The notes below the pieces were generated by a model that did not search any database, was not told the DNA's origin, and saw nothing but the letters and a program-made list of their open reading frames with translations. Below, in pieces: positions 5,790 to 13,773 of a stretch of DNA of 35,070 nt. The stretch is taken from assembly GCA_012517875.1 (NCBI GenBank), contig JAAYUB010000015.1, positions 1 to 35,070 on the forward strand, written 5' to 3'. The stretch is from Acidobacteriota bacterium (lineage in GTDB: Bacteria > Acidobacteriota > JAAYUB01). The position numbers and the translations under genes are program-made. Each line of letters opens with the position of its first letter. The first letter of the stretch is position 1.

Positions 5790-5897
5790 GATAAACGAAT
5801 CATGTTGATGGTTGATGAATCGGTGAATTGGTGCATCGAAAGACAAGAGACGGATCGACTGTCAACCTCAACAATCAACAATCAACAATCAACAGTT
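5790..5897. repeat. Intergenic word tract B
   Basis: The tract lies between two divergent genes. It contains GATGGTTGATGAATCGGTGA-like words (about 5808-5835), AGACAAGAGACGGATCG (about 5842-5858) and a tandem of the 7-mer ATCAACA repeated three times (about 5873-5896). The tract ends 5 bases before the -35 hexamer of the rightward gene. Word order (GGTGAATC/GAGACGG, then ATCAAC) matches tracts A and H. Confidence 0.7.
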
Positions 5898-7474: not shown

Positions 7475-7697
7475 AATCACCACAAAGCCTCGAAGGACAC
7501 AAAGAAGCCATTCCATTTATCATCGATCATCGGTCATTTAGCATTTGTCATTGGTCTGCGAACCTGCGAACCTGTGAACCTGCGAACTTGTAAACGTTAT
7601 AAACCTTCAATCCGCTCGATGACGATTACGAGCACGATTACGATTACGAATTACGAGCACGATATCCGATGTCCGAAGTCTGATGTCCGCTGTCCGT
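7475..7697. repeat. Intergenic word tract C
   Basis: This is the richest tract. It begins with CACAAAG...GGACACAAAG (about 7479-7504), followed by ATCATCGATCATCGGTCAT-like words (about 7519-7553). Five 8-bp units come next: TGCGAACC, TGCGAACC, TGTGAACC, TGCGAACT, TGTAAACG (7557-7596). A hexamer-like run of CGATTA/CGAGCA follows (about 7618-7663), then a run of GATGTCCG-type words (7666-7697) that flows straight into the extended -10 box of the next gene. Base composition is markedly lower in G+C than the flanking genes. No ORF or RNA gene is visible. Confidence 0.75.
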
Positions 7698-13089: not shown

Positions 13090-13118
13090 GGACGGGCAGG
13101 CTCCGCGCCTGCCCGTCC
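13090..13118. terminator. Strong hairpin after the TolC-like gene
   Basis: GGACGGGCAGG, a 7-base loop CTCCGCG and CCTGCCCGTCC form a perfect 11-bp stem 12 bases after the stop codon. There is no T-run, so it may be an atypical or factor-assisted terminator or a 3'-end stabiliser. Its GGCAGG/CCTGCC arms resemble the hairpin at 7451. Confidence 0.6.
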
Positions 13119-13201
13119 CGGCCCACCCTTAAGTGATGAGTTTGCAGTTGGGAGCAGGTTGCGGCGGAGCCCCGCTAATAGTCTCTTATCTCTTTTTAAA
13201 A

Positions 13202-13221
13202 TGGGGAGCTGGGAGTTGGGG
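13202..13221. repeat. Left inverted word arm of tract E
   Basis: GGGGAGCTGGGAGTTGGGGA is a purine-rich word. Its reverse complement closely matches the CTCCTATCTCCCAACTCC-type sequence at 13743-13773. Together the two arms flank the broken four-helix-bundle gene. A further related word (AGTTGGGAGCAGGTTG) lies at about 13145-13160. Confidence 0.55.
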
Positions 13222-13251
13222 ACATCCCACGGTGGAGTCTACTTCGATTTC

Positions 13252-13640
13252 CTATCTCTGATCTTTCCCTTTTTGGGGTGGAAGAAGCCTTCGGATGTGA
13301 CGGCGGAGGCCGAAGAGCAGACGGTTCACTTCGGCCAACTGAGCATCCAGTATTTCCCATGTCTTCTGATCCTATTAACCCGTCCGGATGCTGACTTCGA
13401 GAAGAGTGTCCGGCTCGCTGGCGGAGCCGGCGGCGATCCGGATACAATGAAGGTACTCGCGCGGATTACACCGCGCAGAGTCTTCAGCGAGGTTGGCGAC
13501 GATGGAAACAGCCGCCCGGCGGATCTGCCCGGTTATACCGTATCGCTCGGCGGCCGGGAATGCACGGGTGGCGTCATACACGAGGCGGACCAGATCCATG
13601 CCCTTGCGCCATGCGTGCAACTTTTGTGAGGCTGATCCAT
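13252..13640 (-). pseudogene. Broken four-helix-bundle protein gene (23S rRNA intervening-sequence protein / S23 family)
   Basis: The family signature is plain in the minus frame ending at 13620: LHAWRKGMDLVRLVYDAT, RYGITGQIRRAAVSIVANL, AEDSARCNPREYLHCIRIAAG, SASEPDTLLEVSIRTG. The natural start is the ATG at 13640 (MDQPHKS), which lies in a different frame. Restoring one lost base near 13623-13625 joins it as MDQPHKS-LHAWRKG. After IRTG the frame meets TAA TAG (13377-13372), yet beyond these stops the same frame continues with family-like helix four (ILDAQLAEVNRLLFGLRRH) to a TAG at 13252. The reconstructed length, about 128 residues, fits the family (115-130). Two independent lesions make it a pseudogene. 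Intact relatives are small helical proteins of uncertain function, encoded inside 23S rRNA insertions or alone. Confidence 0.8.
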
Positions 13641-13742
13641 GCGCCCTGCTTTGCCTCTCCTGCTTTCCCCTCTCTATCCATACAAGCGAACTGCACCCGT
13701 CTCCGTTTGAATATTTCTTCGTTTTTCTCTGCTCCCTTCTTC

Positions 13743-13773
13743 CTCCTAACTCCTATCTCCCAACTCCTAACTC
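13743..13773. repeat. Right inverted word arm of tract E
   Basis: This is a tandem of CTCCTAAC / TCCTATCTCC / CAACTCCTAACTC type words that ends exactly where the -35 box of yacG begins (13774). Its reverse complement resembles the left arm at 13202-13221. The rest of the 733-base gap 13078-13810 holds the terminator hairpin, the pseudogene and T-rich low-complexity sequence; I see no intact gene in it. Confidence 0.6.

Follow-up and report, generated by a model that had tools for sequence, protein, structure and literature searches.

The window, that is, the whole 35,070-nucleotide stretch of acidobacterial DNA analysed here, probably harbours a dead copy of the IVP unit, a putative one-gene transposable element of roughly 400–650 bp that consists of a word arm, an IVP gene, and an inverted word arm, and for which a mechanism is proposed below. 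IVP genes are widespread in sequenced bacteria, where annotations name them no further than “four helix bundle protein” or “S23 ribosomal protein”. As a rule, they lie between inverted arms of a degenerate word, mostly of 7 bp. At one plasmid site (site A), arms and gene were inserted together into an otherwise identical site, and gene-less hairpins and solo tracts of the same word families are dispersed in genomes with a matching IVP gene. Sequence comparisons lead to the conclusion that IVP units can be regarded as a one-gene transposable element that is widespread and has miniature derivatives with matching words. These units seem to be the source of long-known scattered short-word repeats. 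If IVP is the mobility gene of such an element, three puzzles would be answered together: the function of IVP, the origin of heptanucleotide repeats, and the entry of intervening sequences (IVSs) into rRNA genes.

The decayed copy in the window

The IVP pseudogene (23S_rRNA_IVP, four helix bundle protein) occupies positions 13255–13640 of the minus strand, with its start codon at 13640, and lies between a yacG-like and a tolC-like gene. The PF05635 profile matches positions 13312–13626 of the minus strand with about 92 bits (91.9–92.2; cut-off 33.8) across one internal TAG and one internal TAA, and the TIGR02436 match reaches 81.7 bits (cut-off 24), which places the pseudogene above both curated cut-offs; intact relatives have profile scores of up to 134.8 bits. 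Alignment with the intact copies at the same yacG–tolC site in two congeners locates a 1-base frameshift directly after the start codon and an in-frame TAA TAG pair where the congeners read TTA CTG. Profile match and alignment together confirm the sequence-only reading, which had described a decayed IVP gene with one frameshift near its start and a TAA TAG pair. A search for rRNA families found no match in the window, and the unit does not lie inside an rRNA gene. The copy is a dead remnant and an ordinary dead member of its kind, which carries little information alone.

The 5′ arm (in gene direction) comprises the CTCCTAACTCCTATCTCCCAACTCCTAACTC tract at 13742–13773, which is G-rich on the minus strand, consists of the degenerate 7-bp words AGTTAGG, AGTTGGG, and AGATAGG, and matches the 5′ arm of a related unit (G001:C24). 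The same word recurs in inverted orientation in a decayed 3′ arm on the plus strand (GGGGAGCTGGGAGTTGGGGA; 13203–13222), which pairs with the 5′ arm, and in a second remnant of the 3′ word tract (GAGTTTGCAGTTGGGAG; 13138–13154, plus strand), which is 88% complementary to 13757–13773. An inverted-repeat search pairs 13206–13220 with 13759–13773 (15 nt, 87% complementary, 538 nt apart). The unit extends approximately from 13130 to 13771 on the minus strand; beyond these limits, the flanks can again be aligned with those of the different units present at the same site in G001 and G002. A perfect 12-bp inverted repeat (GGACGGGCAGGC/GCCTGCCCGTCC; 13090–13118) adjoins the unit, is kept in the congeners, and resembles a terminator of the tolC-like gene.

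Taken alone, the pairing of the arms is borderline, with an arm-to-arm score of 12.0 that is equalled or exceeded at 4.7% of 3000 positions in the same genome. The 5′ tract, however, scores 19.5 against the 5′ arm of G001:C24, compared to 9.5 for the best of 850 other pieces of the window, and the window arms are convincing because this match lies well above background; the match of the 3′ arm to the relative is weak (10.5). The imperfect inverted arms about 500 bases apart that the sequence-only reading had proposed are therefore present as letters, and the 5′ arm is supported by relatives, but their pairing is borderline by itself and the 3′ arm is weak. Comparison with intact relatives, which carry much stronger arms, identifies the window arms as the decayed ends of such a unit. 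The terminal inverted repeats around the S23p ORF, a feature shared with IVSs, are likewise borderline in the window copy but clear in its intact relatives.

Arms and insertion sites of intact units

The window genome contains three further IVP genes, each located between inverted tracts of its own degenerate short word (GGGACCT, TCGTNN, and TCATTNN). IVP is present in 30 of 60 relatives, and 58 of 66 IVP loci in related genomes have an arm score above the 99th percentile of same-locus controls (median 22.5 vs. 9.5). The same threshold is exceeded at 68 of 104 loci from the same phylum and at 38 of 77 loci from named genomes of many phyla; at the 95% level, the numbers rise to 92 and 62, respectively. 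These two sets form the summary census of 181 IVP loci across bacteria, most of which have inverted arms. An absence of such flanks from other IVP copies, which the sequence-only reading had named as evidence against a mobile unit, is not what these loci display.

Among the 142 units with a clear word period, a period of 7 bp is most frequent (106 units), followed by 8 bp (28), 6 bp (5), and 9 bp (3), and G exceeds C in the 5′ arm (gene direction) of 131 of 145 units. Mismatches between the arms are G·U in 140 cases and A·C in 163 (p = 0.21). Because G·U is no commoner than A·C, the arms look like a feature of the DNA rather than an RNA stem; there is no sign of selection for RNA pairing, and an RNA stem under selection was rejected on this ground. 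Word similarity tracks the similarity of the IVP proteins (Mantel r = 0.13; 0 of 500 permutations), albeit only with the arms in the same orientation; the correlation is gone once one arm is reverse-complemented. Some words (AGTGAGG, AGTGCTG, and AGTTTCA) are common to related IVPs from different families of the phylum, yet at the yacG–tolC site of the window, the 70% identical IVP protein of the congeners is surrounded by GTGAACA words. A strict recognition of one word by one protein was rejected: the Mantel correlation, although significant, is weak, and the words of related IVPs are often different, which points to a fast turnover of words. The presence of the same word in both arms of a unit implies that the arms must be made or corrected together. 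Exceptionally long arms, with GGTGGAC words and an arm-to-arm score of 161.5, enclose the IVP unit of a Planctomycetota MAG (L155, around 2501–2815).

The clearest insertion is found at site A of cyanobacterial plasmids. The filled sites in plasmids of Trichormus variabilis and Scytonema contain inserts of 423 and 409 bp, respectively, which consist only of arms and IVP, are located between two copies of GTAAT, and differ in length by 14 bp, i.e., by two words. The empty sites in plasmids of Aulosira and Tolypothrix have flanks that are about 97% identical, a single GTAAT, no insert, and no word tract. These are the filled and empty sites with precise ends that are typical of transposable elements. 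A truncated unit in another plasmid and a gene-less hairpin of the same word in a third also occupy site A, and the same word and IVP family occurs at plasmid sites E and G, i.e., at three different sites in total.

A clean 5-bp duplication (GTAAT) is present at site A and a TTCTA-like one at site G, whereas duplications are not clean at sites B–F and H, where sequence was lost or changed at the junction. IVP-free counterparts also exist in nrdB–nrdA, integrase operon, tra operon, and cas6–cas4 pairs, with blurred junctions. Of the empty sites and target duplications to be looked for according to the sequence-only reading, empty sites exist in near-identical plasmids without the insert, one of them with a clean 5-bp duplication. 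In the window genome and its two congeners, no yacG–tolC or kbl–tdh site is empty, and the units that fill them partly differ; a duplication therefore cannot be read there. The kbl–tdh intergenic site (L074, L077) is occupied in two species by a GGGACCT unit and in the third by another IVP, whose words are GAGGCTC, as if some sites were reused. No IVP was found in 50,697 phage records searched for possible carriers.

IVP genes inside cas loci have been reported as an oddity (PMC3936711). In plasmid pANA02 of Anabaena sp. 90 (L378, 1119–1896), an IVP gene is located between cas6 and cas4, behind a GGTGACAGGGAACA tract of about 300 bp; a plasmid of Dolichospermum UHCC 0315A, whose flanks are 99.3% identical to those of pANA02, has cas6–cas4 without IVP. 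An insertion as in pANA02 probably explains the reported cases.

Gene-less pairs and dispersed word tracts

Word tracts without a gene occur in the window genome at a density of 8.5 per 100 kb (417 kb sampled), whereas three IVP-free genomes, with 305 kb sampled, contain a single one. Almost no tracts are obtained with control periods in the same sampling; the census is based on genome samples. In genome G033, 109 of 140 dispersed tracts (78%) match an IVP arm of the same genome, compared to 3.7% for the arms of other genomes; an excess of own words has the same direction in 11 of 12 genomes. Gene-less pairs with 8–233 bp between the arms have the orientation of IVP units in 30 cases, the reverse orientation in none, and a direct orientation in five. 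In a congener of G033, one hairpin is missing at the matching site, where divergence is too high for reading the junctions. No dispersed tracts are present in the 30–90 kb sampled of the IVP-rich genomes G014 and G041; dispersal is thus not a universal feature.

Within this group of elements, the gene-less hairpins represent the non-autonomous members. The sequence-only reading had suggested a small non-autonomous mobile unit; flanks and empty sites support the mobile unit, and the term non-autonomous fits the gene-less hairpins, whereas gene-bearing units have a likely determinant in their IVP gene. The suspected link between word tracts and the spread of IVP genes is supported: tracts without an IVP gene show the same words as IVP units elsewhere in their genome, and the IVP-free genomes sampled have almost none of them.

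The dispersed tracts of the window genome are often mosaics of several word families. A gene-less mosaic of solo tracts at 7511–7690, between two genes, combines four families (TCATTNN, CTGCGAAC, ACGATT/ACGAGC, and GATGTCC), two of which are also used by the IVP units located on contigs C104 and C117; in the congeners G001 and G002, dozens of further places contain its CTGCGAAC and ACGATT parts. A gene-less inverted TTGATGG pair at 5801–5895 is kept in three species (also L300 and L301). The enclosed stretch measures 50 bp in the window and about 400 bp, consisting of other word tracts, in G001 and G002, so that elements are nested in elements. Samples of the window genome (G000; L257–L276) also contain word families, including TCGGACA, ATCAACT, and CTGCGAAC, that have no IVP gene there, which may reflect lost source genes or another origin.

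Degenerate short-word repeats have long been known from other bacteria, among them the STRR repeats of cyanobacteria. In Luteimonas salinisoli, both arms of the IVP unit have the word GGGAATC, of which the genome contains 99 pattern hits, and many IVP arms of its family read GGGAATC or GGGATTC. Among 79 genomes of this family, 35 of which have IVP, at least 13 GGGAATC hits are present in 15 of the 35 IVP-bearing genomes but in none of the 44 IVP-free ones (Fisher p = 6 × 10⁻⁷, for related genomes and uncorrected for phylogeny). GGGAATC heptamers of Xanthomonas (186 and 183 tracts, with 70–75 convergent pairs) are a published puzzle (PMC4692102); GGGGA(C/T)T heptamers are described for Nostoc (PMC4692102). 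In the case of the TAACTGA heptamers of Beggiatoaceae, a repeat-binding protein has been suggested as a possible mobile element, with none named (PMC4679880). No paper linking IVP to dispersed heptamers was found in the literature searched, mostly outside subscription journals and preprints.

Proposed mobility of the units and their relation to known systems

IVP is a protein of about 120 residues. The sole relative with a solved structure is XCC0516 (2gsc), a small helical bundle known as a pentamer. In an alignment of 14 IVPs, the invariant residues include W6, Q34, R37, N45, E48, G49, R52, S68, and E71, and no known nuclease or catalytic motif is recognised. Weak matches below the cut-off indicate a relationship with Avd of diversity-generating retroelements. 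A reverse transcriptase (RVT_1) has no match in the genome of the window, and its action in trans was rejected on this ground. Genes of Y1 (HUH) transposases occur in eight of nine IVP-bearing genomes; the exception, G016 (95% complete), lacks a Y1_Tnp match despite its seven IVP genes, strong arms, and word tracts.

As the only gene in the insert, the IVP gene looks like the determinant. In the proposed mechanism, the IVP protein would recognise, at the DNA level, the word arms that belong to its family and direct their movement, with cutting and joining carried out by host enzymes or by a still unrecognised activity of IVP. Gene-less hairpins may be mobilised by IVP in trans, in analogy to the mobilisation of REPINs by RAYT. 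Slippage would lengthen or shorten the tracts by whole words, and copying between the two arms may keep them alike. Units that inserted into rRNA helices, and that RNase III removes from the transcript, would be the classical 23S rRNA IVSs with S23p ORFs; rRNA IVSs are probably a subset of IVP units. The most far-reaching version of this proposal, in which IVP proteins are the mobility proteins of an unrecognised pan-bacterial class of elements, each reading its own periodic word, and the source of both the degenerate heptanucleotide repeats of xanthomonads, cyanobacteria, and many others and the rRNA IVSs, has about an even chance of being correct.

Several observations weigh against movement directed by IVP: the lack of a recognised catalytic motif, the single site with a clean 5-bp duplication, the absence of dispersed tracts from the sampled parts of G014 and G041, the word families of the window genome without an IVP gene there, and the Y1 genes in eight of nine IVP-bearing genomes. 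The last point leads to the main rival, in which the word hairpins are substrates of HUH (Y1/RAYT-like) transposases encoded elsewhere and IVP is cargo lying by chance between two hairpins. Such a role would agree with the fixed orientation of the gene-less hairpins, which resemble REPINs mobilised by TnpA-REP (PMC3116915, PMC8266576), but it is unlikely in view of G016, of the presence of IVP as the only gene inside inserts, and of the match between the words of a genome and its own IVP units, which would not be expected from a common transposase acting in trans. Movement or persistence of the unit as an RNA hairpin, in the manner of rRNA IVSs or via reverse transcription in trans, with the arms as its stem, appears rather improbable: the Coxiella IVS with its terminal stem of 28 bp, its GACAGAT heptamers in tandem, and its excision by RNase III (PMC4990558), the relationship of IVP to Avd, and the co-directionality of most plasmid units with the flanking operon speak for it, but the mismatches between arms and the lack of RVT_1 in the window genome speak against it.

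Mosaics and nested clusters of tracts, together with the occurrence of units with different words at the same site in congeners, would also fit a model in which the tracts are ordinary slippage-prone repeats and IVP units spread by homologous exchange between them or are otherwise static selfish or useful genes. There is little probability of this, because plasmid site A lacks a word tract when empty and has a 5-bp duplication when filled, and because the dispersed hairpins are of one orientation and match the IVP words of their own genome. A chance location of the decayed gene between unrelated short G-rich and C-rich stretches could be argued from the 4.7% level of the window arms alone but is extremely improbable given the match of the 5′ tract to the arms of relatives (19.5 vs. 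a background maximum of 9.5) and the clear arms of all three other IVP genes in the same genome.

Among the known systems considered, the IVS resembles the IVP unit, as proposed here, most closely. S23p-bearing IVSs have been described for Coxiella and Leptospira (Ralph and McClelland 1993, as cited in PMC4990558). The 23S rRNA IVS of Coxiella, a suspected selfish element of about 430 bp, has the S23p/IVP gene as its sole ORF, terminal repeats of 28 bp, and, upstream of the ORF, GACAGAT heptamers that vary in number between strains (PMC4990558); an earlier proposal cited there holds that the IVS ORF serves mobility. IVSs share with IVP units the sole ORF, a similar size, terminal inverted repeats, and heptamers. 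By contrast, the units described here are located between protein genes and have filled and empty sites with a target duplication as well as word-matched gene-less derivatives, and the published account treats the heptamers as incidental.

Like REPs and REPINs with their RAYT (TnpA-REP), IVP units form dispersed, intergenic gene-less pairs of fixed orientation that are linked to a gene present in one copy and bordered by these same sequences. However, the gene of the unit encodes a four-helix-bundle protein rather than an HUH nuclease, and there is no Y1 gene inside the units; their words are short (6–8 bp), degenerate, and tandem and change completely between families, and their solo tracts vary in word number. 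The heptameric repeats of Xanthomonas, Nostoc, and Beggiatoaceae and the STRR repeats are likewise degenerate 7-bp tandem words between genes, and IVP units of the bacterial family to which Xanthomonas belongs have GGGAATC as an arm word, but the published accounts name no source gene and propose G-quadruplex or regulatory roles. MITEs and insertion sequences resemble IVP units in their inverted ends, short target duplications, and small non-autonomous derivatives; IVP units differ by having no recognised transposase and by the conservation of the periodic organisation of their ends, rather than of the sequence, between families. Diversity-generating retroelements share a distantly related protein (Avd), but there is no reverse transcriptase in the genome of the window, and none was noticed near the units read. 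The unit lies outside rRNA and has neither an HUH nuclease, a known transposase, nor a reverse transcriptase, and so belongs to none of these systems; one instance of the proposed class, the IVS in rRNA, has nevertheless been described for decades.
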